This document shows positions 13,455 to 58,946 of a DNA stretch of 64,000 bases, piece by piece. The position numbers were made by a program, and so were the translations under genes. The stretch is taken from contig VGXV01000010.1 of NCBI GenBank assembly GCA_016873165.1, positions 1-64,000 on the forward strand, read 5' to 3'. Position 1 is the stretch's first letter; every line of letters starts with the position of its first letter. The notes under the pieces are model-generated. The model did no database searches and was not told the origin of the DNA. It saw only the letters and a program-made list of their open reading frames with translations. The DNA is from Planctomycetota bacterium. GTDB taxonomy: Bacteria; Planctomycetota; Brocadiia; Brocadiales; Brocadiaceae.

Positions 13455-13533
13455 GGTTTTTTAATAAAAAAGTATGTTCATTGTGGACAGTAATATTATT
13501 TTGCATGTGGGCCGATATTTGAAAAAAAACAAG

Positions 13534-15471
13534 TTATCCAAGAATCATCCATTTGTGGATTATTTGTAAAAGAGTATTTTTTTTCATTGGTTTTGTAATA
13601 CAATCATCCATCCCGTGCTCCAGACATTTTTCACGAATGCCCTTCAATGCGTGTGCGGTAAGAGCAATTATCGGAATGTGTGTTAAACCCTGATTTTGTT
13701 CCCGGATCCTGATTTCTTTTGCAGCGGAAAACCCGTCCAGTTCCGGCATTTCTATATCCATCAGGATTAAATCATAATGAATTTTTTGCAGCGCTTCAAC
13801 GGCAAGTTTGCCGTTTGCCGCGATATCAACAGCATAACCCGCTTTTTCCAGGATTGTTTTTGCGAGATACTGGTTATCGGTATTATCTTCCACCAGAAGC
13901 AGTTTGACGTGCGATTTTTCAAAATGCGGTGTTTTTTTCGGATCGGAAGAAAAATATTTCGTGTTCTCCCTATTTTTTGGCACGTGAAATGGCACGGTAA
14001 AGTGAAAACATGATCCTTTGTCTTTTTCACTTTCAATCCATATCTTTCCCCCCATCATTTCAACAAGTGACTTTGATATGCTTAAGCCCAAACCCGTGCC
14101 GCCGTATTTTCGGGTAATGGAAGTATCCGCTTGCGAGAATTTTTCAAAAAGGTTTTTTTGATGTGTTTTTGAAATGCCAATGCCGGTATCGGAAACCATA
14201 AAGTGAACTTCAAAAACATGTCCGGGTGAACAACAATCATGGTTAGTATGCGGTTTAATAGAGAGCAAAACAGAACCTTTTTCGGTGAATTTTATCGCGT
14301 TGTCAATCAGATTCATGAGAATCTGGCGTAAACGGTTCGGGTCTCCTATGAGGATGTCCGGCAGGCAATTGTTTTCTATGGCGTATGTTAAGGTTATTCC
14401 TTTTGCGACAGCGCGGAATTTCATTGTTTCAATAATATTTTCAATAATTTTTTTGGGAGAAAAATGGATGAAGTCTATTTCCATAAACCCGGATTCAATC
14501 TTGGAAAGGTCCAGAATATCATTTATAAGCATAAGGAGAGAATCAGAAGACGATTTTATTGTTGTCAAATAACGGCGTTGTTCCTCGGTTAATTCTGTGT
14601 CCAATGCCAGTTCTGTCATTCCTATTATTGCATTCATAGGGGTGCGGATTTCATGGCTCATGCGTGCTAAAAATTCGCTTTTCGCGATAGTTGCCGATTC
14701 TGCCGCCTCCTTTGCTTTCTGCAGTTCCTCTTCTGCATGTTTTCTTAAGGTAATATCTTCGGCAATAGAAGAGAAATAAATTATTTCTCCCGATTGGTTT
14801 TTAATAGGAGAGATAGATGTGGAAATCCAGTATAGTTCGCCATTCTTTTTCTTATTACAGAGATCTCCCATCCAGACATTTCCTGAAGTAATTGCTTTCC
14901 ATAGGTCTTTATATACTTCCGGAGAAGTAAGACCTGATTTCAGTATCCGGGTATGTTTTCCGGATATTTCCGCAGAGGAATAGCCGGTGAGTTGCAGGAA
15001 TTTATGATTGGTATATTCTATTATTCCTGAAGGATTGGTAAGAAATATTGCTGCGGAGCTTTGATTCATTGCATGTGATAATGTTCTGAATCGGGTAGTG
15101 ACATCCCTCACTATGGCAGTAAACGTGTATTGGTTTCCGTTTCTTGTTTCACTTATTGCCAGATCGATAGGGAAAAGAGTTCCGTCTTTACGTTTTCCCG
15201 TAAATTCCCCTCCGGTGGCGAGTACTTTTTTAATGCCTGTTTTTAAGTAATGTGCCAGATATTCATCGTGTTTGCTTCTGTAAGGTTCCGGCATTAAAAT
15301 GTTGATATTCTTGCCAATAACTTCTTTTTTTTGATATCCGAACAGTTTTTCAGAGGCTTTATTAAATATTTCAATGGTTCCGTGATGATTAATGACAATA
15401 ATCCCATCAGCCGCACTATCAATAATGGCAACCATTTTCGAGGGGTTTTTTTCAATTTCTTCTGGAGTCAT
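13534..15471 (-). CDS. Hybrid sensor histidine kinase (PAS-PAS-HisKA-HATPase-REC)
   Basis: A 645-residue cytoplasmic hybrid kinase. Two PAS domains (about 12-125 and 130-243) resemble FixL/redox-type PAS sequences. H273 lies in [12 protein letters not shown], followed by the ATPase boxes [17 protein letters not shown] and GTGLGLS, then a receiver with its Asp in [13 protein letters not shown]. It is the first gene of the leftward kinase-kinase-HPt group, 79 bases before the second kinase. The two kinases are similar through the catalytic core and receiver, suggesting an old duplication. Confidence 0.95.
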
Positions 15472-37879: not shown

Positions 37880-37947
37880 TGATTACTGGAAGAGATTAAA
37901 TCTTTCATAATTATCAATCATGATTCCGCTTCCCGTAATTTTTGAAG

Positions 37948-38169
37948 TCAATCCCTTTCCCTCATTTTGCGTACGATAGCAACAATATCTTTTGTCGTAA
38001 CTTTTAAATTGATACCTTTTACGTCTAATGGTGATTTTGTAACTTTAAGGGGTGTAATAATAAATTTTTTACCATCACGCCTCTTAATTTGAACTTCTCC
38101 TTCTTTGTTCGCACGTTCCAAAAGATGTGCTAATTTTTGTCGCGCCTCTGAAAAAGTATATACGTTCAT
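37948..38169 (-). CDS. Antitoxin, Phd/YefM-like
   Basis: A 73-residue protein. The N-terminal MNVYTFSEARQKLAHLLERA is the dimer/DNA-binding fold of Phd/YefM antitoxins, and KRRDGKKFIITPL is the following strand. The C-terminal 25 residues, rich in K, R and D, should wrap the toxin. It lies 3 bases downstream of the PIN toxin gene, so the toxin is first in this operon, the reverse of the usual order. Confidence 0.85.
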   Translation of the reverse strand: MNVYTFSEARQKLAHLLERANKEGEVQIKRRDGKKFIITPLKVTKSPLDVKGINLKVTTKDIVAIVRKMRERD

Positions 38170-38172
38170 AAA

Positions 38173-38565
38173 CTATACCTCCATAACATTCACTCCTGCT
38201 TGCTTTGATACGTCTGATAAGGTTCTATCCAAAGAGACTACAGGACATTTATGTTTTAATGCACATGATATTATATAAGCATCATACGCATAGATATTAA
38301 ATTTTTTTGAAAGTTCTATGGAGTGGATTAAATCGACATCTAATAGCCTGATTGGTATTTGACGATAAATGTTAATTGCTTTACGTACTTGGGCCAGAGT
38401 TGCTTGCTTCCTTTTGAACATCGCTGAAAAGGCATTTCCAACTTCCCAATGAACGGATTGCGGGGCAATAATATCAACACCACTTGTGAGTTCAATAAGT
38501 CTTTGCTTTTCCGGCTCATTAGCGATAACAGCAATAACTGCTGAAGTATCAATGACGATATTCAT
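38173..38565 (-). CDS. PIN-domain toxin, VapC-like RNase
   Basis: A 130-residue PIN domain. The four acidic residues of the metal site are visible: D6 in IDTSAVIAV, the Glu in VHWEVGNAF (about 42), the Asp in YAYDAYIISCA and the Asp in VSLDRTL. VapC toxins cleave tRNA or rRNA when freed from the antitoxin. It is the first gene of the leftward pair and is followed by the Phd-type antitoxin gene. A palindrome just upstream (38582-38593) may be the autoregulatory operator. Confidence 0.9.
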   Translation of the reverse strand: MNIVIDTSAVIAVIANEPEKQRLIELTSGVDIIAPQSVHWEVGNAFSAMFKRKQATLAQVRKAINIYRQIPIRLLDVDLIHSIELSKKFNIYAYDAYIISCALKHKCPVVSLDRTLSDVSKQAGVNVMEV

Positions 38566-38581
38566 AAAGTGAATTTAACAT

Positions 38582-38593
38582 GTACAATTGTAC
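38582..38593. promoter_or_regulatory. Perfect 12-bp palindrome, candidate toxin-antitoxin operator
   Basis: GTACAATTGTAC lies 16 bases upstream of the toxin start. A second hairpin-like palindrome (ATTCTTT..AAAGAAT, about 38605-38621) and an ATTATTA repeat follow farther upstream. Autoregulation by the toxin-antitoxin complex at such sites is the rule for this class. Confidence 0.45.
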
Positions 38594-38723
38594 TCGTCAA
38601 TACTATTCTTTAGAAAAGAATGGTTGCCGTATTATTATTTAATAATAATGTAATGTATCATTTCAAAAACACATAAGACATTTTTAACACTTCACAATCG
38701 CCTACTGTATTTATCCGATAGTA

Positions 38724-38752
38724 TTGCAAAAAAGGAATATTCCTTATACAAT
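38724..38752 (+). promoter_or_regulatory. Strong predicted promoter of the channel/vWA operon
   Basis: TTGCAA (38724-38729) and TACAAT (38747-38752) are 17 bases apart, each one mismatch from consensus. Transcription should start near 38759, giving a leader of about 90 bases before the ATG at 38848. An ATG at 38755 would lie at or before the start point and is therefore rejected. Confidence 0.6.
38732..38745. promoter_or_regulatory. 14-bp palindrome inside the promoter spacer, probable operator
   Basis: AAGGAATATTCCTT is a perfect palindrome lying wholly between the -35 and -10 boxes of the operon promoter. A dimeric regulator bound here would either block RNA polymerase or, if MerR-like, twist the spacer. 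The regulator is not encoded next door. Confidence 0.5.
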
Positions 38753-38847
38753 CTATGTATAAAACAATGATGATAAACGGTATTAACCATTATAAATACC
38801 TGTTTGAAAATAGGTTAGGGCAAAAGATTATTGAATCGGTATCAACT

Positions 38848-39705
38848 ATGAATAGATTTTTAAAAAGTACAATGATTGTCCCTTTCGGACTTCTTATTTT
38901 TGTAGTGGTTTTGTCGGTAAATTGTGCGTCGCAAAAGAAGGTTGATTCAAAAGAGGCACATAAAGACAAAAAAACAGTGGAAGAAACAGAACCTGCGAAT
39001 ACGAAGACGGTACAAACAGAAAATGCCATACGGGAAGATGTTGAACCATCCGAAGAAATGGCGCCAACGAATGAAAAAAGCGCCTTAGAGGGTATAAAAA
39101 AGGAACTGGACGAATCTCTGGCAGGATTTAATGAAGCATTGCTGAAAAAAGAAGCAAGCACAAAACAGGAAGGATCCGGTTCTTTTACAGGAAATGCCCC
39201 TGCCGGTGTGACGCAGGATGAATTGGGTAATTTAACGAAAGAATTAGACAAATCTCTGATAGAATTTGACGATATGCTGCTCAAAGAAAAGAATGAAATC
39301 CAGGAAAGAAAACAGAGCAAGATAAATGGCACGGGAGAAAATGGAGCGGCGGCATCACAAAAAACAGGAGACAAAGGAACAAGCGCCGGAAGTTCCTCCG
39401 GCAAAACAAATTCCGGAGGGAATGCCCGGAGGGAAACAGCAGGAGAAGGTCATGAAGGTGAAGTATCTCATGAAGAGGGGCATGGAACATCATCAGGCGC
39501 CGGCAGCCAGGGGGATATGGCAGGAACAGGCGGCAGTTCAGCTTCCGGCACACAAGGGAGACCGACATACGGAAGCGCACAGGATGATGATGTTGTTGCA
39601 CGCCAGATTCGTGAAGCGGCGGAAAAGGAAACCGATCCTGTCCTGAAGGAAAAACTCTGGAAAGAATATGAAGAGTATAAAAAAGGAAAAAGCGGGAATG
39701 AGTGA
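38848..39705 (+). CDS. Putative lipoprotein with duplicated helical motif and disordered tail
   Basis: A 285-residue exported protein, not recognised. A signal segment (about 8-24) is followed by LSVNCAS; the Cys suggests a lipoprotein, although Asn before it is unusual. A charged region then holds two copies of an approximately 18-residue motif, KKELDESLAGFNEALLKKE and TKELDKSLIEFDDMLLKEK, likely amphipathic helices. The last third is Gly/Ser/Thr-rich and disordered, with a short charged helix at the end. It is the first gene of the nine-gene operon and its stop overlaps the start region of the next gene. Confidence 0.7.
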   Translation: MNRFLKSTMIVPFGLLIFVVVLSVNCASQKKVDSKEAHKDKKTVEETEPANTKTVQTENAIREDVEPSEEMAPTNEKSALEGIKKELDESLAGFNEALLKKEASTKQEGSGSFTGNAPAGVTQDELGNLTKELDKSLIEFDDMLLKEKNEIQERKQSKINGTGENGAAASQKTGDKGTSAGSSSGKTNSGGNARRETAGEGHEGEVSHEEGHGTSSGAGSQGDMAGTGGSSASGTQGRPTYGSAQDDDVVARQIREAAEKETDPVLKEKLWKEYEEYKKGKSGNE

Positions 39706-39707
39706 CT

Positions 39708-40922
39708 ATGACTATTTCTATTCGTAAGTATCATATAATTTTTTTTGCCCTTCTCTTTCTCACCTCATGTGCCGGTTTAAATTCCCGAAAGATAGCGCAA
39801 ACGGAGATTCAGCAGGCACAGCAGCAGGTTCCCGAGGAAGAGTTGCTGGATATTGGCATAATGGTTTTTGAAAGTGAAGAAATTACGGAAAAGCAATCGA
39901 AAAAAGAAGGCACCAATCCGGAGGTAAGGAAGGCGGAGAATCATTTTGTTTCCTACCATTTGAAAAATACGCTGGAACGAAGCGGCCACTGGGGTATGGT
40001 TCGTGTTACCCCGCTGGAATCCGAATCTGCAGACGTTCTGATAAAAGGCGGGATCGTCGAGTCAAATGGAGAGAATCTCGTCGTTGCTATTACCGTGAGC
40101 GATTCTGCCGGCAATGTCTGGCTGAAGGAAAAATATAAGGCCACTGTCACGGAAGGCGCTTATAAAGATAATGTTTCCGGAGAAAAAGACATTTTTCAGG
40201 GGCTCTATAATGCCATTGCCAATGATATGACAAATTACAGGAAAAAGATGAATCCTGAAAAAATTAAAGAAATACGCGCCGTAACACAACTAAAATTTGC
40301 CAGATACTTTGCGCCGCATGCGTTTGAGGGGTATTTGGAAGAAAGTAAGAAAAATACATTCACCTTGAAACGTCTTCCTGCTGATAATGATACCATGATG
40401 GCGCGTATCCTGGAGAGCAGGGAACGGGTGTACATGTTTGAGGATACCATTAATGAATATTATGAAGGATTTTACAATGAAATGTGGGCTCCTTATGAAG
40501 AATGGCGGAAGCTGAACCTGACGGAACGCATCGCGTTAAATGCGCAAAAACGGTCTGCCTTTTTAAGGCAGGCAGGCGGCGCCATGCTGGTTGCGCTGGG
40601 TGTTATGATGGAAGTACAGGATGTGCATGATTCAGCCATATTAACCGGCGGGTTGGTAATCATTGGGGGACAGGTGTTTTTAAGCGGATTGAATATTTCA
40701 AAGCAGGCACAAATGCATTACGAAACACTTGAAGAACTTGGCGAATCTTTTGGAAGCGAAATGAAACCTGTTGTGCTGGAGTTTGAAGGCAAAAAATACG
40801 AATTAACAGGTACTGCCGAAGAACAGTATAAACGGTGGAAAGAGATACTCCATCAGATGTATTACGTTGAAACCGGCTTTTTACCCCCCGAATCCCCTGA
40901 ACAGAATGATTCTCAGGAATAA
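39708..40922 (+). CDS. Lipoprotein with beta-rich domain and hydrophobic helices
   Basis: A 404-residue lipoprotein. The signal peptide ends in the lipobox LTSC (Cys near residue 21). Residues 40-180 form a beta-alpha domain (DIGIMVFESEE, then ADVLIKGGIVESNGENLVV, then VWLKEKYKATV) resembling LpoB/CsgG-type periplasmic domains; this is a weak comparison. A helical middle follows, then two hydrophobic helices (about 280-320) that might enter a membrane, and a charged C-terminus. ATG at 39708, or GTG at 39702 which overlaps the previous stop. Second gene of the operon. Confidence 0.7.
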   Translation: MTISIRKYHIIFFALLFLTSCAGLNSRKIAQTEIQQAQQQVPEEELLDIGIMVFESEEITEKQSKKEGTNPEVRKAENHFVSYHLKNTLERSGHWGMVRVTPLESESADVLIKGGIVESNGENLVVAITVSDSAGNVWLKEKYKATVTEGAYKDNVSGEKDIFQGLYNAIANDMTNYRKKMNPEKIKEIRAVTQLKFARYFAPHAFEGYLEESKKNTFTLKRLPADNDTMMARILESRERVYMFEDTINEYYEGFYNEMWAPYEEWRKLNLTERIALNAQKRSAFLRQAGGAMLVALGVMMEVQDVHDSAILTGGLVIIGGQVFLSGLNISKQAQMHYETLEELGESFGSEMKPVVLEFEGKKYELTGTAEEQYKRWKEILHQMYYVETGFLPPESPEQNDSQE

Positions 40923-40932
40923 CCGGAAGTGT

Positions 40933-42519
40933 ATGGTGAACGACAACAGAGATCAGACAAAACAACCCGAAGAAACCTACGTGGTATCATCTGGCGAACC
41001 GTCTTCAGGCAACCGGGATAAATTCATAACCCCCCTCAAAATTACGGCAGATGAAAAAAAAGTCATTCACTCCGCAGTCAAAAAAAACGTTGTTTTGAAG
41101 CGTGCAATGCTGGCCTCCGGCATAATAGGCGTCATTGTTGCCGTTTTCTGGTTATTCATGTATTTATCGCAAAAGCCCGCTCCTTCTGTGACGGCTTCAC
41201 AGGAGAAAAGAATGCCGGACGGAGCGTCACAGGAACAAACATCAGCCGTTCCGGTTTCAAAACCGGATACGGGCAAAAAGAATGTCCGTAGCACAGAGCA
41301 GAAGAATACGGCAGTGCAAAAGCTTTCCGGCTATTTGTTGTTAAAAAAAGAATTGGATAAAAAAGGGGCGTCAGAGTGGGGAGGTGAATTGTATGAGGAG
41401 GCAATCAGGTTCAGTAAAATAGCAGATGATTCTTTTATCAGAAAGGAATTCGATGGTGCGTCGGAAAACTATGCCGCCGCAACCGCACTATTGACAGAAA
41501 TGAACGATGGCATCAATGATGCCTTAAGCCGCGTTCTCGATGAAGGACAGCAGGCGCTTGTTGAAGGGAATGGCGCTCTGGCGCAGAAGAGGTTTCAGGT
41601 TGCGTTGATGATTGACCCTGAAAACGGCTTTGCCCGGCAGAATCTTGAAAGGGCTAAAAATATTGAAAAAGTTATGGCTTTTATCGCTTCGGGGGAAAAA
41701 CATGAAAAAAATAATGAGCTTTCTGCCGCGTATGATAAATATCAGGAGGCGGCAAATCTTGATCCCGAATGTGTAGAAGCACAAGCGGCATTGAAGAGAG
41801 TAGAAAAACTGATCGCAGACGAAATGTTTCAGCAGCTCATGTCAGAAGGGTTTCTCGCGTTGAACGGCAATAATTATGAGGATGCCCGAACATTTTTTCT
41901 GAAAGCCGGGTCCCTGAAACCGGGTTCTCATGAGGCGAAAGATGCGCTGACACAGGCAGAGATAGCTATCCGATTGGCGCATATTGAAGAACTGAAGAAA
42001 AAGGCATTAGCCGCTGAAGAGTCCGAAGATTGGGAGGGGGCTCTTTCTTCGTACCAGGAGATATTAAACGTAGATGGCGCCATTCAGTTTGCCATTCAGG
42101 GGAAAGAACGCACTGCGCAGCGTAGTGAACTGGAAAAGCTCATGCGTCAATATCTGGAGACGCCGGGTCTTTTAGAATCAGACCAGAACATTGAAAAGGC
42201 AACAAAACTGATGTACGAAGCGAAACAGATAGAACCAAAAAGCCTCCGTTTTAAGCAGTTGTTAAAAGAATTTGATGAATTGATAACATTGGTTCAGACA
42301 CCGGCGCCGGTAATTATAGAATCAGATGGCATGACGGAAGTAATCGTATATAAAGTGGGAAAATTAGGACTCTTTAATACACGGGAGATGAAACTGAGGC
42401 CGGGGAAATATACCATTGTGGGCGCCAGAGACGGGTATAAGGATGTGAGGCTGAACATTTTGGTCAAACCGGAACAGGAACCCATACGTATTACGGTAAA
42501 ATGCACTGAAAAAATATGA
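40933..42519 (+). CDS. Membrane-anchored TPR-repeat protein with PEGA-like end
   Basis: A 528-residue protein with about 57 cytoplasmic residues, one membrane helix (58-78, GIIGVIVAVFWLFMYL), a Pro/Ser/Thr linker, and a periplasmic part of about eight helical repeats of TPR type (for example AYDKYQEAANLDPECVEAQ). The last 60 residues (LRPGKYTIVGARDGYKDVRL) are a PEGA-like beta domain, also found in the next protein. TPR arrays bind partner proteins, so it may be a scaffold of the complex. The start is the ATG at 40933 with GGAAG upstream; an upstream in-frame ATG overlaps the lipoprotein gene. Confidence 0.78.
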   Translation: MVNDNRDQTKQPEETYVVSSGEPSSGNRDKFITPLKITADEKKVIHSAVKKNVVLKRAMLASGIIGVIVAVFWLFMYLSQKPAPSVTASQEKRMPDGASQEQTSAVPVSKPDTGKKNVRSTEQKNTAVQKLSGYLLLKKELDKKGASEWGGELYEEAIRFSKIADDSFIRKEFDGASENYAAATALLTEMNDGINDALSRVLDEGQQALVEGNGALAQKRFQVALMIDPENGFARQNLERAKNIEKVMAFIASGEKHEKNNELSAAYDKYQEAANLDPECVEAQAALKRVEKLIADEMFQQLMSEGFLALNGNNYEDARTFFLKAGSLKPGSHEAKDALTQAEIAIRLAHIEELKKKALAAEESEDWEGALSSYQEILNVDGAIQFAIQGKERTAQRSELEKLMRQYLETPGLLESDQNIEKATKLMYEAKQIEPKSLRFKQLLKEFDELITLVQTPAPVIIESDGMTEVIVYKVGKLGLFNTREMKLRPGKYTIVGARDGYKDVRLNILVKPEQEPIRITVKCTEKI

Positions 42520-42552
42520 AAAAATCATGGAGAAACAAAGGCAGGCACAGGT

Positions 42553-44655
42553 ATGGAATACATTCCGAAGGATAAAATAATTGAACCGGTGCCGTTCCGG
42601 CATGGCCCCGGCCTTAAAAAGCCGGGATTATCTTCCCTGTTTAAACACCCTGTGTGGATTTTTCCGGGGATAGTGCTAATTTGCCTTTCATTCTTTGCCT
42701 GGATTATCTTTACTGCAAAACAGATTGAGATACAGGTCGATCCCCGGCCTGACCGGGTTTCCATCAAGGGGAGTCTTATAACACCCCGGTTTGGCAAGTA
42801 TTACCTTCTTCGTCCGGGAAACTATATTCTGAAGATATCAAAAAAAGGGTATCGCCAGGTTGAGGAACCTTTGACAGTTTCGGAGGAAAAAAACCAAAAA
42901 AGTAATTTTGTATTGGAAAAACTTTCCGGCTTTTTAACCCTCACAGCGCATCAGGAGGGTCAGCCATCGATAATTATTGAAGGCGCTGCTGTTTACCTCG
43001 ACGGTGAAGAAATTGGCACGACTCCTCTTTCCGGCATTGAGGTGAAACCGGGACTCCGGAAACTGGTCATTGATGCGGAAGACTATAAAGAATTTGAAAC
43101 GCAACTGGAGATCGAAGGAATGGGTAGCCGGCAATCGGTTGCTTTTGCATTGATACCCGGATGGGCTGAGGTAAAGATACAAACGCTTCCCCAGGCGGCG
43201 GAAGTTTTTATTGATGGCGCCAATAGGGGAGAAAGCCCTTTAATCCTTAAGCTTGCAGAGGGCGCTTACCAGCTTGAAATTCGCGCGGAGCATTTCAAGA
43301 CATGGAGGTCTCAATTAGATGTTCAGGCAGGGCAACCACTGGTTTTTGATTCTGTTCAATTACAACCGGCGGATGGAATCCTTTCTCTGAGAACCGAACC
43401 TTCAGGGGCAAATGTTATGGTTGACGGAACTTTTGCAGGGCAGACACCGGTAAATATTAACCTTTCACCGGAAGCCGAACATCTTATACAAATATCAAAA
43501 GCAGGCTATGAAAATATTGAACAAAACGTAACAGTCGTTTCGGAAGAAACAAAGGAACTCGATCTGGAATTGACGGCAAATACAGGAGTGGTTAATTTCA
43601 GGGTTGCCCCTTCTGATGCGGAACTGTTTATTAACGGAACATCATATGGGATCGTTCCGGAAAGTGTAAACCTTGTTGCAGTTGTACAAAGTGTTGAAAT
43701 AAAGAAAAAAGGGTATGAATCATATCAGACGGAGATTACTCCTCTTCCCGGCTTTCCTCAGGAAATAATTGTTACTCTGGAAAAAACGGTTCATCCAGCA
43801 GGGGTTCCTTCAGGCACAGTCAGGGCCATGAATGGTTCTTTGCTTGTTTTAGTTCATCCCGCTTCATTTGTCATGGGATCATCACGCCGGGAACAGGGGA
43901 GAAGATCAAATGAGACGTTGCGGAATATTGTTTTGAAACGGCCTTTCTATATGGGGGTGCGTGAAGTTACCAATGAAGAATTCAGGCAGTATCTGAAAGA
44001 GCATAATTCCGGTTCATTCAGGGAGCACAGCTTGAATCATAAAGAGCAGCCGGCGGTGCAGGTAAGCTGGGAACAGGCGGCGTTGTATTGCAACTGGTTA
44101 AGTGAAAAGGAAAAACTGCCGGAAGTATATATGAAACAGGGAGAAAAACTGGTGGCCAGGTATCCGCTTCCCGATGGATATCGGCTGCCTACGGAGGCGG
44201 AGTGGGAATATTGCGCCCGTTTTGGCGGCAATAAGGAAGTGTTGATGTATCCCTGGGGAGATACCTTTCCGCCTCCTGCGAAAACCGTCAATATTGCCGA
44301 CCGTTCCGCTAAGGATGTGGTATTTCCCATCCTGGATGATTACAATGATGACTATCCGGTGGCAGCTCCGTCTGCCTCATTTAAGGCAAATACACTGGGC
44401 ATCTATGATCTCGGCGGCAATGTTGCCGAATGGTGCCACGACTATTATACTATATATCCCTACTCTCCGGAAGAGCGGTATCAGGACCCTGCAGGGCCGG
44501 AGGAGGGCAAGCATCATATTGTGAAAGGCTCAGGCTGGAGCCATGCCAGCATTAGTGTATTGAGATCGGCATACAGAGATTACAGCGATGACAAGCGTAT
44601 CGATGTGGGATTTCGCATCTGCCGGTATGCGGGGCGTAATAACAAAAAGGAATAG
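42553..44655 (+). CDS. Membrane PEGA-repeat protein with SUMF1/FGE-like domain lacking catalytic cysteines
   Basis: A 700-residue protein. One membrane helix (about 35-55) is followed by four PEGA-type beta domains (VYLDGEEIGTTPL, VFIDGANRGESPL, VMVDGTFAGQTPV, LFINGTSYGIVPE). Residues 425-695 are a formylglycine-generating-enzyme fold: GSSRREQGRRSNE, the FYMGVREVTNEEF motif, RLPTEAEWEYCAR, LGGNVAEWCHDYY and VGFRICR. The segment where true FGEs carry the catalytic Cys pair reads GSGWSHASISVLRSAYR, so the domain is probably structural, as in GldJ/GldK of type IX secretion. It lies just after the TPR gene in the operon. Confidence 0.85.
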   Translation: MEYIPKDKIIEPVPFRHGPGLKKPGLSSLFKHPVWIFPGIVLICLSFFAWIIFTAKQIEIQVDPRPDRVSIKGSLITPRFGKYYLLRPGNYILKISKKGYRQVEEPLTVSEEKNQKSNFVLEKLSGFLTLTAHQEGQPSIIIEGAAVYLDGEEIGTTPLSGIEVKPGLRKLVIDAEDYKEFETQLEIEGMGSRQSVAFALIPGWAEVKIQTLPQAAEVFIDGANRGESPLILKLAEGAYQLEIRAEHFKTWRSQLDVQAGQPLVFDSVQLQPADGILSLRTEPSGANVMVDGTFAGQTPVNINLSPEAEHLIQISKAGYENIEQNVTVVSEETKELDLELTANTGVVNFRVAPSDAELFINGTSYGIVPESVNLVAVVQSVEIKKKGYESYQTEITPLPGFPQEIIVTLEKTVHPAGVPSGTVRAMNGSLLVLVHPASFVMGSSRREQGRRSNETLRNIVLKRPFYMGVREVTNEEFRQYLKEHNSGSFREHSLNHKEQPAVQVSWEQAALYCNWLSEKEKLPEVYMKQGEKLVARYPLPDGYRLPTEAEWEYCARFGGNKEVLMYPWGDTFPPPAKTVNIADRSAKDVVFPILDDYNDDYPVAAPSASFKANTLGIYDLGGNVAEWCHDYYTIYPYSPEERYQDPAGPEEGKHHIVKGSGWSHASISVLRSAYRDYSDDKRIDVGFRICRYAGRNNKKE

Positions 44656-44657
44656 TC

Positions 44658-44999
44658 ATGCGAATAATAACAATAATTGGAATGATTCTTTTCCTTGCAA
44701 ATATTTCTTATGCAGTGGCTGTCCGGGAAGATGACCGGCCAGGGGCGCAAGGGATGAAAAGCGAGAAAGTTCAGACCATGTGGTGTCCTCTGGCGGATAT
44801 CATCGTGCTTGCACAGAATGACCATGCGGATGCCGCCGAACCGGGACAGCCTGTGCATGCAGAGGAAGAGGGGCAGGAAAAGATACAGCAGGAAAATGAT
44901 TCTCCGGAGCAGGATAAAAAAAAGCCGGAGGTAAAGGATTTTGAGCCATCGGAAAAAATTGATGCGGAAAAAGCGGTGGATTTCCCCGCGGATATATGA
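44658..44999 (+). CDS. Small exported acidic protein
   Basis: A 113-residue protein with a signal peptide (hydrophobic core 4-18, likely cut after AVA) and a mature part that is acidic and lacks predicted structure, rich in Glu, Asp, Gln and Pro. Two residues after the start of the mature protein have little similarity to known folds. An AAAAGGA site and a 2-base gap to the PEGA/SUMF1 gene show it is in the same operon. It is not recognised and may be fast-evolving. Confidence 0.6.
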   Translation: MRIITIIGMILFLANISYAVAVREDDRPGAQGMKSEKVQTMWCPLADIIVLAQNDHADAAEPGQPVHAEEEGQEKIQQENDSPEQDKKKPEVKDFEPSEKIDAEKAVDFPADI

Positions 45000-45012
45000 A
45001 AAACTTTGTAAC

Positions 45013-45125
45013 AGTTCACCCATTTTGGATTTTTCCAGTACTTGAAAAAGACACACCCCTGGCCCCTCTCAAGAGGGGAATACAAAAGTCCCCTCTTGGG
45101 AGGGGATTTAAGGGGTGGGTGAACT
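45013..45125. repeat. Palindromic element with AGTTCACCC ends
   Basis: A 113-base element bounded by perfect 9-bp inverted repeats AGTTCACCC/GGGTGAACT. Inside are ACACCCCTGG/CCTCTCAAGAGGGG and TCCCCTCTTGGGAGGGG arms, which pair across the middle. With the MITE just downstream it fills the 331-base gap inside the operon. Confidence 0.65.
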
Positions 45126-45143
45126 TTAAAGAATAAAATAAAT

Positions 45144-45284
45144 GTAACACTTTAGTTTTTTGAAAAAACATAATTTCTCAGCTATTTTGCAACCCTGACA
45201 GGGTTTTAGAACCCTGTCAGGGTTAAACCGGGAAGCAGGATTTGCCTTATGTTATTACAATTTTTCAAAAAACTAAAGTGTTAC
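45144..45284. mobile_element. IS66-type MITE, copy 1
   Basis: A 141-base non-coding element. Its ends are perfect 24-bp inverted repeats beginning GTAACACTTTAGTTTTTTGA, and it is flanked by an 8-bp direct repeat AAATAAAT (45136-45143 and 45285-45292). GTAA ends and an 8-bp duplication are the marks of IS66-family transposition. The core holds two small palindromes, AACCCTGACAGGGTT and AACCCTGTCAGGGTT. It needs a transposase encoded elsewhere. It sits between the small exported protein gene and the channel gene. Confidence 0.8.
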
Positions 45285-45330
45285 AAATAAATACGTTTCA
45301 GGAAATATTCCTAACTATAAAGAGGTTGCC

Positions 45331-46134
45331 ATGAAAAAAAGATTCCCACTGTCGTCGGAATTTGTCTATCAGTTGTTTTCATTATTTATCAGCGTAATTT
45401 TGTTGCATGCAATCTATGCGGCAGTAATTCGTCCTAAAGCGGATGCATTTTTAGCCGGGGAAGCAGCATTGATGAAGGATGACCCGGCACATGTAACACG
45501 GAGTTCTATCCTTGTAATAATCAGCGATTACGAACAGGAGGCATGTTTTATACTGATGGTATGGGCATTGTCCATAATGGGCTATAAGGCCGTCTCAACC
45601 CATAAACACCGAAGATTATTGGAATCAGACCTGGTGCCGCTGGCGGAAGGGGTGCGCATTCTTCCTGAAGATACGAAAGACCTTTCCCGGCAGATTCAGG
45701 GCTTGCCGCCTGATCAAAGGAGAGCGCTTCTTTCCCGTGTGTTGCTGGCTGCCCTGCAGCGCTTCAGCTCGACACACAATATCCAGGATGTTTCCGACGT
45801 TGCGCACTCGTATTGTTCCGCAGAGGGAGAGAGGCTGGACGCGGAATTGTCCATGGTCAGATATATTGCATGGGCTATTCCTTCCATAGGATTTATTGGA
45901 ACGGTGCGGGGCATAGGTTTAGCCCTCGGACAGGCTCATAAGGCTGTGCAGGGAGATATATTTGATGTTACCAAGAGCCTGGGGATAGCCTTTAATTCTA
46001 CCCTGATTGCTCTTTTAATCAGCATCGTTCTTATGTTTGTCCTGCATCAGTTGCAACTGATGCAGGAGCGCTATGTGCTTGATTGCGAAGCATACTGCGA
46101 AGAGAAACTCACATGTCGTCTGCACAAACGCTAA
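45331..46134 (+). CDS. MotA/TolQ/ExbB-family proton channel subunit
   Basis: A 267-residue membrane protein. It has hydrophobic segments at about 12-30 and 62-88, a cytoplasmic helical part, and two C-terminal membrane helices in the order of the family (VRYIAWAIPSIGFIGTVRGIGLAL at about 177-200, SLGIAFNSTLIALLISIVLM at about 216-236). The core motif PSIGFIGTVRGIGLAL and the Thr/Ser in the last helix line the proton path in ExbB/TolQ/MotA. It should form the stator ring of an ion-driven machine with the two vWA proteins encoded downstream as ExbD/MotB counterparts. AAAGAGG precedes the ATG. Confidence 0.88.
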   Translation: MKKRFPLSSEFVYQLFSLFISVILLHAIYAAVIRPKADAFLAGEAALMKDDPAHVTRSSILVIISDYEQEACFILMVWALSIMGYKAVSTHKHRRLLESDLVPLAEGVRILPEDTKDLSRQIQGLPPDQRRALLSRVLLAALQRFSSTHNIQDVSDVAHSYCSAEGERLDAELSMVRYIAWAIPSIGFIGTVRGIGLALGQAHKAVQGDIFDVTKSLGIAFNSTLIALLISIVLMFVLHQLQLMQERYVLDCEAYCEEKLTCRLHKR

Positions 46135-46145
46135 GGGAATAAAGT

Positions 46146-47561
46146 ATGTCATTGCTCGGTCTGGAATTAAGTGATGCCGGAATTATAGCGGCTGGTGGAG
46201 AACCTGCGCGACTTTTGGAAGTTGAGGGAAGAGAAAAAGAAAGTCCTGGTTTCGCAATCTCCCTGGATGGACAGTTGATTGTTGGCAAAGACGCCCAAAA
46301 TATGGCGCGGATCAATCCGCGCTCATATACTGATCATTTTTGGGAGGAGTTAAGCACAGAGCCGTTAAAACAAAGGGGACTGGAAGGAAAAAATAATGCG
46401 GAGCTTGCTTACCACCATCTGTCAAAAATCTGGAATACCGTTAAAGGGCTGGGAAATGAGCTTGTCATTGCGGTTCCGGGATATTTTACCCAGCAACAGA
46501 TGGGGCTTGTTCTGGGTGTTGCCAGGGAATTATCCATCCCTGTAAAAGGTTTTGCTGCAGCGGCAGTCGCCGCGTCATCAATGCCCTATCCCGGACAGCT
46601 TTTGTTTCATCTGGATATTCATCTGCATCGCATAGAGATAACATTTCTTGAGCAGAACGAATTTCTGCTTCATAAAGATATGGAAACTCTCACGGGAAAA
46701 GGCCTCAGCTATCTCTATGCGGAATGGGTAAAAGCCGTTGCGGATGAATTTGTCAGGACAACACGTTTTGATCCTTTTGACAAGGCTGTTTATGAGCAGG
46801 AATTATATAGCCGTCTGCCACAGGTGTTGAATGACCTGCAGAGGAATTCATCCGTATTGTTTACGATGAAAACAGGATCACACAGCTATAACGTAACCTT
46901 AACCTATGATCTTTTTGCAAAGATCGGCCAATTGGTTTTTCGTGAGGTGTTCCGCGTCATTGAGATGATGGCAGGGAAATACAAGACTACAGAAAAGCCT
47001 TTCGTTGTGGAGGCAACGCATCGTGTTAGTCTGCTGCCGGGATATAAGGAAGTGGCGGATACGATGTCAAATATACAGCTTGTTGAGCTTGTGCCGGGAG
47101 CGGGGGCTTTGGGTCTTCTTCAGTTAAAAGAGAGATTTTCCTGCCAGAAACCAGGCCATGGGGTAACATTTATTACCAGTCGGTCGTGGAAAATGCCTCA
47201 GCAGCCTTCCAACATAATTACCGGAGCTTCTGACTCAGATATTTTACCTCCCACCCATATCCTTTACGGCGCCCTTGCGTATCCTGTCACTGCTCAGCCG
47301 CTCATAATCAGGCAGGGAAATAGCGGTGGTATTCATATCGGTACGAACGACAGGGGAACCGAAAGTTCTTTGCGGTATTGCGCTATTCAGCGCAGCGATG
47401 AAGGTGTTTTGCTTATTGATTATGGATGCGCCGGCAGTGTATTTGTTGACGGCAAAAAGATTCAGGGCGGGACTATTGTAAAACGCGGACAGACAATCCG
47501 TATAGGAAATTCCGGGGAAGAAATTCAACTTATTGCCTGCGTGGAACCCGATGAAGCGTAG
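46146..47561 (+). CDS. Hsp70/actin-fold (ASKHA) protein with FHA-like C-terminal domain
   Basis: A 471-residue soluble protein. Residues 1-330 have the order of an Hsp70-like nucleotide-binding domain: an N-terminal GLELSDAG strand pair, ELVIAVPGYFT, a GFAAAAVAAS helix, LFHLDIHLHRIEI at the phosphate-2 position, and a late VPGAGALGLL. The phosphate loops are degenerate (Glu for Asp, missing glycines), so ATP hydrolysis is doubtful. Residues 395-465 resemble an FHA domain (LLIDYGCAGSVFVDGKK, then RGQTIRIG). It starts 11 bases after the channel gene and overlaps the first vWA gene by 11 bases. A chaperone-like or gating role in the machine is inferred. Confidence 0.75.
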   Translation: MSLLGLELSDAGIIAAGGEPARLLEVEGREKESPGFAISLDGQLIVGKDAQNMARINPRSYTDHFWEELSTEPLKQRGLEGKNNAELAYHHLSKIWNTVKGLGNELVIAVPGYFTQQQMGLVLGVARELSIPVKGFAAAAVAASSMPYPGQLLFHLDIHLHRIEITFLEQNEFLLHKDMETLTGKGLSYLYAEWVKAVADEFVRTTRFDPFDKAVYEQELYSRLPQVLNDLQRNSSVLFTMKTGSHSYNVTLTYDLFAKIGQLVFREVFRVIEMMAGKYKTTEKPFVVEATHRVSLLPGYKEVADTMSNIQLVELVPGAGALGLLQLKERFSCQKPGHGVTFITSRSWKMPQQPSNIITGASDSDILPPTHILYGALAYPVTAQPLIIRQGNSGGIHIGTNDRGTESSLRYCAIQRSDEGVLLIDYGCAGSVFVDGKKIQGGTIVKRGQTIRIGNSGEEIQLIACVEPDEA

Positions 47562-48642
47562 AACGACCAATGTATTCAGCCTTTCTTTTATTGACGCCCT
47601 TACCTGCGGACTGGGGGCGATTATTCTGTTATACGTAATTGTTAACGCGAGGGGAACTGCGTCCAGGAACGAAGTCACGAGCGAGCTTCGCGGAGAGGTT
47701 GACCGGATGGAAAGAGAAGCGCTTCAGGGCAGAAAGAATTTGATAGAAGCGCGGAACACATACGAGCAGGTTGTTGAAGAATTGGCAAAAGCACAGGGAC
47801 TTTCACGCCAGTTGATAAAGGCCATTGAAGAAAAACAGGCGGAGCTTGCCGGTTATGAAAACGATACCCTTGCTTCCAAAGAACATATCAACAAGTTAAA
47901 GGCGGATATAAAATCGCTGGAAGAGGGTATGAAGCGTCTTGAAGGAGGAAGCACATCCCGCGATGATTACGGATCGAAAATAAGACGGTTTCCCGGGGAG
48001 GGGGACCGTCAGTATCTGACCGGTCTTAAAATGGGGGGTGAACGAATATTTATTCTGGTGGATGCTTCTGCCAGCATGCTGGACGATACGGTCATTGGAA
48101 TTATCAGGAGAAGAAACCTGGACGATGAACAAAAAATACGTTCAGCCAAATGGCAGCATCTGGTTTCATCCGTCGATTGGCTGACTACCCAGCTTCCCCT
48201 GACCAGTAAATTTCAGATTTACACCTTTAACGAAACGGCAATGCCGCTGATTGAGGGTACGGAGGGAAAATGGCTGGAGGTGAATAATGCCCCGCAACTC
48301 AATGAAATGGTTTCCCGGCTTCGTAAGGTAGTTCCGCAAAAAGGGACGAGCCTGGTAAATGCTTTTCTCGCTGCGCGCAGGATATCGCCCCAGCCGGATA
48401 ATATCTTTTTGCTTACGGACGGCTTGCCGACTATGGGTGAGGAAAAATCCCGGGAAAACAAGGTTTCCGGGAAAAAACGTTTAAACCTGTTTTCCGGGGC
48501 GGTGAAAGCGCTTCCTCCGAACGTTCCGGTAAATATTATTTTATATCACATGGAAGGCGATCCTGCCGCGGCCAGCTCTTACTGGCAACTGGCGATGGTG
48601 ACCGATGGATCGTTTTTTTCTCCTTCCCATGACTGGCCGTAA
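47551..48642 (+). CDS. ExbD/MotB-like helix fused to coiled coil and vWA domain (first paralogue)
   Basis: A 363-residue protein. A basic N-terminus leads to one membrane helix, VFSLSFIDALTCGLGAIILL, with Asp15 near its start, like the proton-carrying Asp of ExbD/MotB. Residues 40-132 form a charged coiled coil. A von Willebrand A domain follows with a full MIDAS: D171-x-S173-x-S175 in ILVDASASM, T266 in KGTSL and D290 in LLTDG. Family knowledge predicts metal-dependent protein binding in the periplasm. The ATG at 47551 overlaps the preceding gene. An upstream TTG would add only six residues. Confidence 0.85.
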   Translation: MKRRTTNVFSLSFIDALTCGLGAIILLYVIVNARGTASRNEVTSELRGEVDRMEREALQGRKNLIEARNTYEQVVEELAKAQGLSRQLIKAIEEKQAELAGYENDTLASKEHINKLKADIKSLEEGMKRLEGGSTSRDDYGSKIRRFPGEGDRQYLTGLKMGGERIFILVDASASMLDDTVIGIIRRRNLDDEQKIRSAKWQHLVSSVDWLTTQLPLTSKFQIYTFNETAMPLIEGTEGKWLEVNNAPQLNEMVSRLRKVVPQKGTSLVNAFLAARRISPQPDNIFLLTDGLPTMGEEKSRENKVSGKKRLNLFSGAVKALPPNVPVNIILYHMEGDPAAASSYWQLAMVTDGSFFSPSHDWP

Positions 48643-48696
48643 TTACCATCATAGGGAATTCAGCGAATTATTTTAACGTTTAGGAATTTCAATCTT

Positions 48697-48831
48697 GGTA
48701 GGGTGGGCATTGCCCACCAATGTCATTAAGTTAAGAAGGTAGATTAAGGCGTTGTATTTTACGCCGAATCCACCAATAATATGCTTTTGTCAGGATTGCT
48801 TAACTTAATGACATTGCATTGCCACCCTACC
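48697..48831. repeat. Inverted-repeat element between the two vWA genes
   Basis: A 135-base element with outer arms GGTAGGGTGG/CCACCCTACC and inner arms TGTCATTAAGTTAAG/CTTAACTTAATGACA (48721-48735 and 48799-48813). Its core (ATTAAGGCG..CGCCGAATCCACC) is shared with the elements at 15617 and 35716. It splits the operon between the two vWA genes. The rest of the 224-base gap holds nothing recognised. Confidence 0.7.
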
Positions 48832-48866
48832 CTGTTAAAGTTGACGAAGTCCTAATTGTCTATAGC

Positions 48867-49868
48867 ATGAAGAGAAACCGTAAAGATATTCAGGTATTCA
48901 GTTTGTCCTTTCTTGACGCTATCTGCTGTGCCTTTGGCGCCATTATTCTCTTATTTGTCCTGTCAAAATTTGCCGAACCTCTCATTATTGAAGAAATGAG
49001 CGAGGAGCTTCAAGGGATGATTGAAAAACTTGAGAAGGAAATTTTTGAGATTCGCGGCGAGACACATGTGCTCAATCGTGAGATTGAGGGAAAAAAAGAA
49101 CAGCTTTTCGCTGAAAAAGAGGGGATTGCACGGTTACAGGGAGATATTTCAAGAATTGAGGGTGAATTTTCAGCATCAAAACAAAATGCCGGTGTTCAGA
49201 ATATCCTTGAAGGAAAACTGGCAATGGCGAAACAGAAGCTTACCGAAGAGATGGAACGGCTTCTGAAAAACAAGCCGCGGCAAACCGACGGTTCTGTCGG
49301 AGGCATCCCGGTGGACAGTGAATATATTATTTTTATTATTGATACCTCCGGCAGCATGCAGCGGAATGCCTGGAATCTGGTACAGAAAAAAATTCAGGAA
49401 ACGCTGGATGTATATCCTAAAGTAAAGGGCATTCAGGTAATGAACGATATGGGGGACTACATGTTTCCTCAATACAGCGGTAAATGGATACCCGATACCC
49501 CCGGCCGCCGGAAAGTAATTATTGATACACTGAGCGCCTGGAGACCTTTCAGCAACAGCAGTCCCGTCGAAGGGATTACTGCCGCGATCAATGCCTATTA
49601 TGATCCGGATAAAAACATCAGTTTGTATGTCTTTGGTGATGAATTCAGCGGCAGAGACACGCAAAGCGTAATCACTACGGTAGACCGCATTAACAAAGCC
49701 GGTAAAGAAGGCAAGCGCAGGGTGCGGATACATGCAGTGGGATTTCCTGTTATGCTCAGTCAACGTCTGAGTGATGACAACACCGGCGTGCGATTTGCCA
49801 ACCTTATGCGCATTCTTTGCCAGAAAAACGGAGGCACCTTCGTTGGGCTTAATTCTACCAGGCCCTGA
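48867..49868 (+). CDS. ExbD/MotB-like helix fused to coiled coil and vWA domain (second paralogue)
   Basis: A 333-residue protein with the same plan as the preceding vWA protein. The membrane helix VFSLSFLDAICCAFGAIILL has Asp17 at the matching position. A long coiled coil (about 42-135) follows, then a vWA domain with D159-x-S161-x-S163 in IIDTSGSMQ and an Asp in VFGDEFSG; the MIDAS Thr position is Ser. The paralogues diverge in the vWA part, so they may form a heteromer with different partners. The ATG at 48867 is used because the helix motif starts ten residues later; it lies just past the repeat element. Confidence 0.85.
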   Translation: MKRNRKDIQVFSLSFLDAICCAFGAIILLFVLSKFAEPLIIEEMSEELQGMIEKLEKEIFEIRGETHVLNREIEGKKEQLFAEKEGIARLQGDISRIEGEFSASKQNAGVQNILEGKLAMAKQKLTEEMERLLKNKPRQTDGSVGGIPVDSEYIIFIIDTSGSMQRNAWNLVQKKIQETLDVYPKVKGIQVMNDMGDYMFPQYSGKWIPDTPGRRKVIIDTLSAWRPFSNSSPVEGITAAINAYYDPDKNISLYVFGDEFSGRDTQSVITTVDRINKAGKEGKRRVRIHAVGFPVMLSQRLSDDNTGVRFANLMRILCQKNGGTFVGLNSTRP

Positions 49869-49916
49869 GAGATTATAATTGCCATCATTGGTAAATTTTA
49901 TTATCTTTAGACAGAT

Positions 49917-57281: not shown

Positions 57282-58946
57282 ATGACGGAAAAAGAATTAC
57301 ATGCATATTTGCAGCTTCATTACCCCAGGGAAAATGAGCGTTGTGAGTGGAAAGCGTTCAGTAACCTTACGCATGATGTGTCAGGACATAAAGGTGAGGA
57401 TGTAATATCTTATGTTTCGGCTATTGCCAATATGCAAGGCGGTCAACTGGTAATCGGAGTGGAAGATAACACGCTGAACATAATGGGTATTCGGAATTTT
57501 CATGATTACACCCCTGAAAACTTACCTGCCCGTTTGGCCGGAAATTGTACACATCTTATAACGGAAGGATTGTATGTAGAAAACATTACAACTACTGATA
57601 CGAATAAAACAGTCTGGATAATTCATATTCCCAAGCATGCTCCCCGCAAGCCGGTGATTGCGCACAAACAGCCATGGCAGCGATTGGGGGATAATTTAGC
57701 AAAGCTGACACAAGAAAGGGAGGCGGCAATTTTGAGTGAGCCGTTAAGTAATATTGAGGATTGGAGCGCCGCCATTGTGCCGGATGTCGCAATTAATGAC
57801 CTTGACACTGCGGCTATCGCAAAAGCCCGTGAAAATTACAAGAACAAGTTTCCCGGACAAGCAAAGGACGTTGATCAATGGGATGATATTACTTTTTTGA
57901 ATAAGGCCAAAGTAACCATTAAAGGGAAGATTACCCGTACAGCAATAATTCTATTAGGCAAACCGGAATCGGAGCATTTTATTAGTCCGGCAGAGGCAAA
58001 GATACGCTGGCTCTTGAAAGATGCCAAGGAAAATGACAAGGACTATCACATTGAGAGTTGTCCTTTACTGCTGGCTGTTGATAAGATATATGCAAAAATC
58101 CGTAACCTGAAATACCGCTATATCAAAGAGGGCACTTTATTCCCTGATGAGGTTGATCAATACGAGCCGTTTGTAATCCGTGAAGCAATAAACAATTGCA
58201 TTGCACATCAGGATTACACAAAGGGCGGCCGGATTAATGTTGTTGAAATGGAAGATCAATTGATATTTACCAATCTCGGCAGCTTCATTCCTGGTTCCGT
58301 GGAGAAAGTAGTGAAAGAAGATGCGCCGGAAGAACACTACCGCAACAGATTTCTCGCAACCGCCATGTTTAATCTGAAGATGGTAGACACCGCAGGAGGC
58401 GGCATAAGAAAGATGTTTCATTATCAACGTGAAAGATTTTTCCCTATGCCGGAATATGACTTATCACAAGAAAGAGTAAAAGTGACGGTTATCGGCAAGG
58501 TGTTCGATATGGATTTTGCGCGTGTACTCGCACGAAATCCGAGGTTGTTTTTAGAGCAAATTGTCATGTTAGATAAGGTACAAAAACGGAAACCACTTTC
58601 AGATGAGGAGATCAAATATCTGAAAGGGGTTGGTTTGATAGAGGGGAGAAAACCCAATTACGTTATCTCTGCCAAAATTACTGCGTCGCTGTCCAATGAT
58701 GAATTAAAGGCGCATTATATTAAGCAGAGGGGGCTTGATGATGAACATTACAAAAATCTCATCGTTGAATATCTAAAAAGGTTCGGGGAATCACCAAGAA
58801 AAAACATTGAGAAGTTCCTTCGGGACAAATTGCCGGACATATTAACTGAATCCCAAAAGAAGAACAAAATTACTAACTTGCTCTCTGCATTAAGAATCAA
58901 GGGGGCAATACGTAACAACGGGTATTCGAAATGGACTCTTGTTTAA
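57282..58946 (+). CDS. AlbA_2/Schlafen-type DNA-binding ATPase-like regulator
   Basis: A 554-residue protein of the COG2865 type. The N-terminal AlbA_2 domain (about 15-135) includes GEDVISYVSAIANMQGG. An HATPase_c_4-type ATP-binding region follows (about 300-400) with the helix REAINNCIAHQDY (N box) and GGRINVVEMEDQLIFTNLG; a DTAGGGIRKMF glycine motif is present. Winged-helix segments end the protein. Such proteins are often annotated as transcriptional regulators or as putative helicases and are common in accessory and defence islands. The role here is not known. An 11-bp tandem repeat starts in its stop codon. Confidence 0.82.
   Translation: MTEKELHAYLQLHYPRENERCEWKAFSNLTHDVSGHKGEDVISYVSAIANMQGGQLVIGVEDNTLNIMGIRNFHDYTPENLPARLAGNCTHLITEGLYVENITTTDTNKTVWIIHIPKHAPRKPVIAHKQPWQRLGDNLAKLTQEREAAILSEPLSNIEDWSAAIVPDVAINDLDTAAIAKARENYKNKFPGQAKDVDQWDDITFLNKAKVTIKGKITRTAIILLGKPESEHFISPAEAKIRWLLKDAKENDKDYHIESCPLLLAVDKIYAKIRNLKYRYIKEGTLFPDEVDQYEPFVIREAINNCIAHQDYTKGGRINVVEMEDQLIFTNLGSFIPGSVEKVVKEDAPEEHYRNRFLATAMFNLKMVDTAGGGIRKMFHYQRERFFPMPEYDLSQERVKVTVIGKVFDMDFARVLARNPRLFLEQIVMLDKVQKRKPLSDEEIKYLKGVGLIEGRKPNYVISAKITASLSNDELKAHYIKQRGLDDEHYKNLIVEYLKRFGESPRKNIEKFLRDKLPDILTESQKKNKITNLLSALRIKGAIRNNGYSKWTLV

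Follow-up and report, generated by a model that had tools for sequence, protein, structure and literature searches.

Do the nine genes that lie side by side in a planctomycete genome encode one machine, and if so, what does this machine do and has it been described before? The window considered here is the whole stretch of DNA that was analysed, 64,000 nucleotides from a Planctomycetota bacterium (Brocadiaceae; assembly GCA_016873165.1, contig VGXV01000010.1, positions 1 to 64,000 of the forward strand). The contig belongs to the anammox bacterium Candidatus Kuenenia, and the channel protein and two von Willebrand factor A proteins of the cluster (vWA1 and vWA2) are 87-88% identical to those of Ca. 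Kuenenia hertensis. The initial annotation of this DNA, made from the sequence alone, had reported nine co-directional genes, and these were confirmed in place and strand. We consider, with moderate confidence, that they encode a trans-envelope motor driven by the proton motive force (PMF), which acts on an assembly of outer-membrane lipoproteins and a SUMF1 protein and was ancestrally gated by threonine phosphorylation.

38755-49868, + strand: nine-gene cluster (open reading frame list)

The channel protein served as query against 84,980 genomes and found 229 related places; our counts on loci rest on the best 80. These 80 loci come mainly from Desulfobacterales and Gammaproteobacteria; Nitrospinia, Phycisphaerales and Ca. 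Kuenenia hertensis contribute one each, and Idiomarina none. The order lipoprotein, lipoprotein, TPR, PEGA-SUMF1, ExbB, ASKHA-FHA, vWA1, vWA2 is unbroken in 80 of 80 loci, and the phyla represented are Desulfobacterota, Gammaproteobacteria, Nitrospinota and Planctomycetota. Wherever both members of a neighbouring pair of these eight large genes are present, they keep the same order and strand (56/56, 61/61, 69/69, 76/76, 76/76, 69/69 and 64/64). Because this set was selected by the channel protein, co-occurrence was tested independently with the second lipoprotein (lipo2) and vWA1 in 291 genomes of the class of Desulfosarcina, where each is found in 25 genomes and 23 are common to both (hypergeometric P ~1e-29). 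The homologues are thus co-located in other genomes, and the kept order bears out the single co-inherited machine that the initial annotation had supposed.

The gene set is unevenly distributed. vWA1 occurs in 68 of 294 genomes of the order of Microbulbifer, and in Planctomycetota strong full-length matches were obtained in only 4 of 392 genomes, so that the Kuenenia clade is one of the few planctomycete carriers of the full set. In a tree of the channel, vWA1 and vWA2 calculated with a quick method, the Kuenenia clade, together with the related genome G010, lies inside the desulfobacterial clade with full support, and this nesting makes it probable that Brocadiaceae acquired the cluster horizontally. 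G010 carries the whole set at another site, where a protein with vWA and Ig-like domains adjoins the complete cluster (L120:2433-4526). The gammaproteobacterial loci have extra genes, namely those of two more lipoproteins and of a TPR protein that ends in a TonB_C-like region, and an M48 protease gene is added at the loci of Microbulbifer and its relatives; these four travel with the cluster in differing arrangements (L036 1-2673, L068 14264-17219).

The core of the proposed motor consists of the channel and the two vWA proteins.

45331-46134, + strand: MotA/TolQ/ExbB-family channel subunit, proposed pentamer (PF01618, 8.9e-14)
47551-48642, + strand: vWA1, with a transpore-like Asp helix, a coiled coil and a periplasmic vWA domain with the metal-ion-dependent adhesion site (MIDAS) DxSxS (VWA_2, 7.6e-6)
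47593-47595, + strand: Asp15 of vWA1, invariant and transmembrane (VFSLSFID; orthologue alignment)
48867-49868, + strand: vWA2, with a transpore-like Asp helix, a coiled coil and a periplasmic vWA domain with the MIDAS DTSGS (orthologue alignment)
48915-48917, + strand: Asp17 of vWA2, invariant and transmembrane (VFSLSFLD; orthologue alignment)

The assignment of the channel to the ExbB/MotA type, which the initial annotation had made, is upheld by the MotA_ExbB match (E=8.9e-14), and the channel profile also matches TolQ structures (E=0.004). In the alignment of orthologues, three threonines of the channel are invariant: T191 (45901-45903), T214 and T224 (46000-46002). Both vWA proteins begin with a short cytoplasmic tail followed by a helix of the form [VF]-x-x-S-[FL]-[IL]-D. 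As the initial annotation had recognised, this is a MotB/ExbD-like Asp helix on two vWA proteins; all 20 diverse orthologues aligned for each protein keep the residue, D15 in vWA1 and D17 in vWA2, and the MIDAS DxSxS is likewise present in 20/20 vWA1 and 20/20 vWA2 sequences. The Asp of vWA1 aligns by eye with that of the ExbD/TolR protein of the same genome (INLTPLVD). The vWA helices read FSLSF[IL]DA and do not contain the His-bearing SHLS motif of the TonB/TolA type. There is no ExbD gene within the cluster, and considering that the genome has a single ExbD gene, which lies on a different contig (C22) next to a separate ExbB gene, the channel of the cluster has no ExbD partner there.

This core is not new. 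A study from 2025 (Williams-Jones et al. 2025, Mol Biol Evol msaf138, PMC12204202) reported TolQ homologues accompanied by heterologous vWA pairs, without tolR and with an Asp in the transpore helix, and its AlphaFold 3 models place the helix Asp within the TolQ-like pentamer, facing a Thr ring. Since a TolQ-like channel with two vWA proteins has been reported there, the motor core of the Kuenenia cluster is not an undescribed principle.

The TPR protein and the ASKHA-FHA protein, whose gene lies between those of the channel and the vWA pair, form what we regard as a signalling arm.

40936-42519, + strand: TPR protein with a single transmembrane helix and a PEGA-like C-terminus (TPR, 6e-7)
46146-47561, + strand: cytoplasmic protein with the fold of the Hsp70 nucleotide-binding domain (NBD; ASKHA) and a C-terminal FHA domain (fold search, Hsp70 NBD E=2.8e-19)
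47256-47558, + strand: FHA domain that has lost the S-x-x-H motif for binding phosphothreonine (SSLRYC in this copy)

Many relatives have a longer form of this TPR protein, with a cytoplasmic Ser/Thr kinase at the N-terminus, followed by a membrane helix, TPR repeats and a PEGA-like end. The kinase domain of these orthologues was detected with Pfam Pkinase at 3.4e-43 (L026) and 6e-8 (L036), and it is absent from the Kuenenia copy. Judging from these orthologues, the Kuenenia TPR protein is what is left of a transmembrane Ser/Thr kinase, and this origin gives a meaning to the FHA domain encoded in the same cluster. The initial annotation had listed the TPR gene correctly as part of the set and had missed this kinase ancestry. 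A TPR-linked kinase, active or degenerate, is found in ~20 loci of both Desulfobacterota and Gammaproteobacteria; its motifs are near-complete (HRD or HGD with DFG/DFA) in ten loci and degenerate in about ten loci of Gammaproteobacteria. In one locus, the TPR reading frame carries an N-terminal iron-containing alcohol dehydrogenase domain (L024:4113-7124), which is either an assembly chimera or a real fusion.

The Hsp70-like FHA protein of the initial annotation was supported by family profile and by structure. On the one hand, the ASKHA-FHA family profile finds FHA domains with E=6e-6 and Hsp70s with E ~0.006, with the Kuenenia copy alone matching FHA at 0.008. On the other hand, the AlphaFold model (predicted local distance difference test score (pLDDT) 91, 53 sequences) gave template modelling (TM) scores of 0.79-0.80 to DnaK/Hsp70 NBDs over ~350 columns. 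Of 53 ASKHA-FHA proteins, 52 do not have the DxGG(G)T (DLGGGT) phosphate motif, so this protein is probably not an ordinary ATPase and an ATP-driven Hsp70 chaperone is disfavoured. No Hsp70 substrate-binding domain was found in it, and the FHA domain comes after the NBD. A divergent ASKHA-FHA homologue (E=2e-27) occupies the same slot in the core cluster of another genome, G027.

The states of the kinase and the FHA domain follow a pattern. Kinases counted as active pair with a canonical FHA SxxH in 10 of 10 loci (one of them, L029, is a fragment that does not cover the catalytic motifs), and degenerate kinases pair with a degenerate FHA in 9 of 9 scored loci. In kinase-less loci the FHA domain is mixed, nine being canonical and 24 not, and the loci without an ASKHA-FHA gene (L127-L130, L072, L080) have no kinase either. 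At distant planctomycete loci with ExbB and vWA genes, a kinase is nearby in 7/8 and an FHA protein in 5/8, against 0/8 and 0/8 at ordinary ExbB loci of Brocadiales taken as control. Based on these distant loci, the association of kinase, FHA and motor is older than the exact proteins. Two further arrangements were seen: Ser/Thr kinase-SUMF1/PEGA fusions flanking a planctomycete cluster of ExbB, ASKHA-FHA, FHA and vWA (L136:2595-4994, 11910-14294), and a fusion of an FHA domain with a trypsin-like domain, which adjoins a kinase, ExbB and a vWA protein (L132:10384-12411).

The remaining genes of the cluster encode envelope proteins.

38755-39705, + strand: lipo1, lipoprotein-like or low-complexity secreted protein, first in the conserved order (open reading frame)
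39702-40922, + strand: lipo2, outer-membrane-type lipoprotein with a TolB-N-like N-terminal domain followed by long helices
42553-44655, + strand: PEGA-SUMF1 protein, anchored in the membrane, five PEGA repeats and then a SUMF1/FGE domain at the C-terminus (PEGA, 7.7e-51; FGE, 3.8e-44)
43846-44622, + strand: SUMF1/FGE-fold domain, both catalytic Cys of the formylglycine-generating enzyme (FGE) absent (GSGWSHASISVLRSAYR; alignment to human FGE and PorK)
44658-44999, + strand: small exported protein of 113 amino acids, fast-evolving (open reading frame, signal sequence)

Homologues in the lipo1 slot were found in 56 of 80 loci, or 49 of the 52 with room on the contig; all 70 loci with room for it have a PEGA-SUMF1 gene, and a similar small open reading frame occupies the slot of the 113-amino-acid protein in ~30 loci. 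These data support the participation of the lipoproteins, TPR and PEGA-SUMF1 proteins in the machine as an envelope assembly, as first annotated. The lipobox Cys of lipo2 is invariant in an alignment of 39 sequences, and its AlphaFold model (pLDDT 84) suggests a relation to TolB, which makes up 15 of the top 17 fold matches in the PDB (best E=1.7e-3). In the SUMF1 domain, the relatives inspected also have no Cys in the FGE catalytic segment. An FGE-type modification enzyme was rejected on the missing catalytic cysteines, and for the same reason the domain probably serves for docking. Among NCBIfam models it is closest to PorK/GldK, and PorK structures were matched at 4.7e-19. PorK, of the type IX secretion system (T9SS), lacks the FGE cysteines as well and is the docking hub in a ring that is turned by the PMF-driven PorLM motor.

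We propose that these parts would work together in the following way. The ExbB/TolQ-type protein would form a pentameric inner-membrane channel, and its pore would hold the N-terminal Asp helices of vWA1 and vWA2, which would replace ExbD/TolR/MotB as a heterodimeric rotor. Proton flow would rotate the two helices, and the coiled coils and vWA heads of the rotor would transmit force to the periplasm. The load may be the periplasmic assembly of the PEGA-SUMF1 protein (a dead FGE fold acting as docking hub), the TPR protein and the outer-membrane lipoproteins, one of them TolB-N-like. In the ancestral form, the transmembrane Ser/Thr kinase at the N-terminus of the TPR protein would sense the periplasmic side and phosphorylate a partner, and the Hsp70-fold FHA protein would read the phosphothreonine at the cytoplasmic face and thereby switch or assemble the motor. 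Without a kinase domain and with SSLRYC in place of the FHA motif, the Kuenenia copy has lost this switch and is probably an unregulated remnant, with a motor that is constitutive or otherwise controlled.

Several points weigh against this proposal. The window copy has neither a kinase nor a canonical FHA domain, so phospho-gating cannot apply to it. The kinase and FHA states shift jointly on only 3-4 independent branches; their correlation is not statistically established and must be taken as a pattern, not as proof. The control ExbB loci, being from Brocadiales, may hold fewer kinases than the test genomes. The match of lipo2 to TolB (E=1.7e-3) has a low whole-chain TM score of 0.21, and the Pfam vWA match of vWA2 is weak (0.022), its MIDAS and alignment being clear. 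A bolder formulation would see in the cluster a class of 5:2 rotary motors not described before, which are driven by protons, have a vWA heterodimer as rotor and are turned on and off by Ser/Thr phosphorylation: a transmembrane kinase would phosphorylate a partner, and the pseudo-Hsp70-FHA adaptor on the channel would be the clutch. The class would span Planctomycetota, Desulfobacterota and Gammaproteobacteria, and would have lost the switch repeatedly, as in Kuenenia. We offer this formulation as a tentative possibility.

Alternatively, the cluster may be mainly a sensor. Envelope stress or contact would be perceived by the lipoproteins, the SUMF1 domain and the vWA proteins and relayed to the kinase and FHA proteins, like in TagQ, TagR, PpkA and Fha of the H1 type VI secretion system (T6SS), and ExbB would give a tension or proton signal instead of doing work on the outer membrane. 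The parts do resemble the threonine phosphorylation pathway, with its outer-membrane lipoprotein, its periplasmic TagR, which we take to be SUMF1-like, its transmembrane kinase and its FHA protein, and the kinase-SUMF1 fusions at the distant locus L136 point in the same direction. However, most loci have kept the motor, vWA, SUMF1 and lipoprotein genes with a kinase that is missing or inactive, and the output of a sensor would not be expected to be the first part lost. Since the strictly conserved Asp and Thr residues also indicate proton-driven work, we consider a sensor unlikely.

A machine for gliding or surface adhesins, similar to Agl-Glt or T9SS/Gld, in which the motor shifts vWA- or SUMF1-bound adhesins along the envelope, is more doubtful still. 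It would agree with the affinity of the SUMF1 domain to PorK/GldK described above, and gliding has been suggested for vWA transducers, citing work on Myxococcus (PMC12204202). Nevertheless, the conserved set holds no GldM, GldN, GldL, Glt or adhesin genes; GldL, GldM and GldN (PorL, PorM and PorN) were not found, the SUMF1 domain alone giving a match (GldK, 118 bits, cut-off 350). In addition, many of the hosts, such as Microbulbifer and Kuenenia, are not known to glide.

The cluster and its surroundings have further features.

37880-49871, no strand: segment of ~12 kb between recG and hlyD, absent from the same site in the congeneric genome G001
38173-38565, - strand: PIN-domain (VapC-like) gene, directly upstream of the cluster and within the segment missing from G001
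45143-45285, no strand: element like a miniature inverted-repeat transposable element (MITE), with 32-nt arms, inside the operon and 5' of exbB
48718-48816, no strand: MITE-like inverted-repeat element with 18-nt perfect arms, between vWA1 and vWA2

In a blastn comparison with G001, homology stops at 37855 and restarts at 49872, and the flanks lie ~280 bp apart there without the cluster. In a second congener, G002, the cluster is present between the same flanking genes as in the window. RNA elements and tRNAs were not found at the cluster borders. The orthologue alignment gives 47551 and 48867 as the better start positions of vWA1 and vWA2. Regarding the tight packing that had been described, most genes do overlap or have short gaps, but 331 bp (45000-45330) precede exbB and 224 bp (48643-48866) precede vWA2; as both gaps contain MITE-like inverted repeats, the continuity of a single transcript in the Kuenenia genome is doubtful. 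The strong promoter that the initial annotation placed at 38724 proved to be an ordinary 9-of-12 match, of which the region has 32 against 21 +/- 4 expected. The downstream HlyD-MacB genes were tried as an analogue of TagST and are not counted as parts of the cluster, since they are not its neighbours in loci of other phyla and remain in G001, where the cluster is missing. A Schlafen/AlbA_2 and HATPase_c_4 protein at 57282-58946 is unrelated to the cluster.

The presence or absence of the cluster at one site between closely related genomes, together with a weak match of the channel subunit to ZorA (E ~1.5e-3), would suit an antiphage motor like Zorya, and defence was one option of the initial annotation. 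We consider this very improbable, because there is no ZorB-type peptidoglycan-binding rotor and no ZorC, ZorD or ZorE nuclease or helicase, the other genes have no PADLOC family above noise, and the chromosomal context is stable across the Microbulbifer loci; a defence system was rejected accordingly. As for plasmid-borne relatives, a single weak Rhizobium match was the only one. Finally, the genes for the channel, the chaperone-like protein and the envelope proteins might be unrelated neighbours that merely adjoin in Kuenenia, as the two repeat elements interrupting the gene string could suggest. This reading is refuted by the order kept in 80/80 loci across phyla and by the 23/25 co-occurrence in the independent search, and its probability is negligible.

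Flagella, Tol, Ton, T9SS, gliding and Zorya are powered by PMF-driven 5:2 motors. The vWA-rotor branch of these motors was proposed in 2025 without a known function or regulation. The envelope set of lipoproteins, PEGA-SUMF1 and TPR proteins, together with the arm of kinase, FHA and Hsp70, provides this branch with a definite list of parts and with a control mechanism that can be tested, and because the genes are present in cultivable Microbulbifer, deletion tests are practical. If the ancestral gating holds, it suggests a motor that is switched by signalling.

In comparison with known systems, the cluster shares with Zorya (ZorAB) the MotA/ExbB-like channel, but differs from it in the rotor and in the absence of ZorB, ZorC, ZorD and ZorE. 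With Tol-Pal it shares a TolQ-type channel, an Asp-helix rotor, a TolB-N-like lipoprotein domain and a TPR partner, whereas its nine genes include no TolR, TolA, TolB propeller or Pal peptidoglycan-binding domain and have vWA heads instead. The T9SS/Gld core (PorLM, PorKN) is similar in having a PMF motor on an outer-membrane-side complex and a cysteine-less FGE fold (PorK); in contrast, the cluster lacks PorM/GldM arches, PorN and Sov, its rotor would be a vWA heterodimer, and its SUMF1 domain is carried by a PEGA stalk that has its anchor in the inner membrane. The threonine phosphorylation pathway of the T6SS (TagQRST-PpkA-PppA-Fha) likewise has a transmembrane Ser/Thr kinase, an FHA reader, an outer-membrane lipoprotein and a periplasmic SUMF1-like protein, but here the operon is that of a motor and not of a T6SS, the FHA domain is fused to an Hsp70 fold, and no PP2C phosphatase was seen in the cluster. 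Of these features, the kinase is absent from the Kuenenia copy and present in relatives, and the SxxH motif of the FHA domain, lost in Kuenenia, is canonical in the relatives with catalytic kinase motifs.

The closest counterpart is the TPH-vWA/TolQ-like family of Williams-Jones et al. (PMC12204202), in which a TolQ/ExbB gene lies by vWA genes without tolR or exbD, and two different vWA proteins with an N-terminal helix Asp were predicted to form a rotor inside the pentamer. This likeness is one of arrangement and motifs. The text of PMC12204202 contains no kinase, FHA/forkhead, Hsp70, PEGA, formylglycine or Desulfobacterota. The initial annotation had not recognised the cluster as a described system, which no longer holds for the channel and its paired vWA core. 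Relative to that text, the full conserved envelope set and the kinase/FHA/Hsp70 signalling arm are new.

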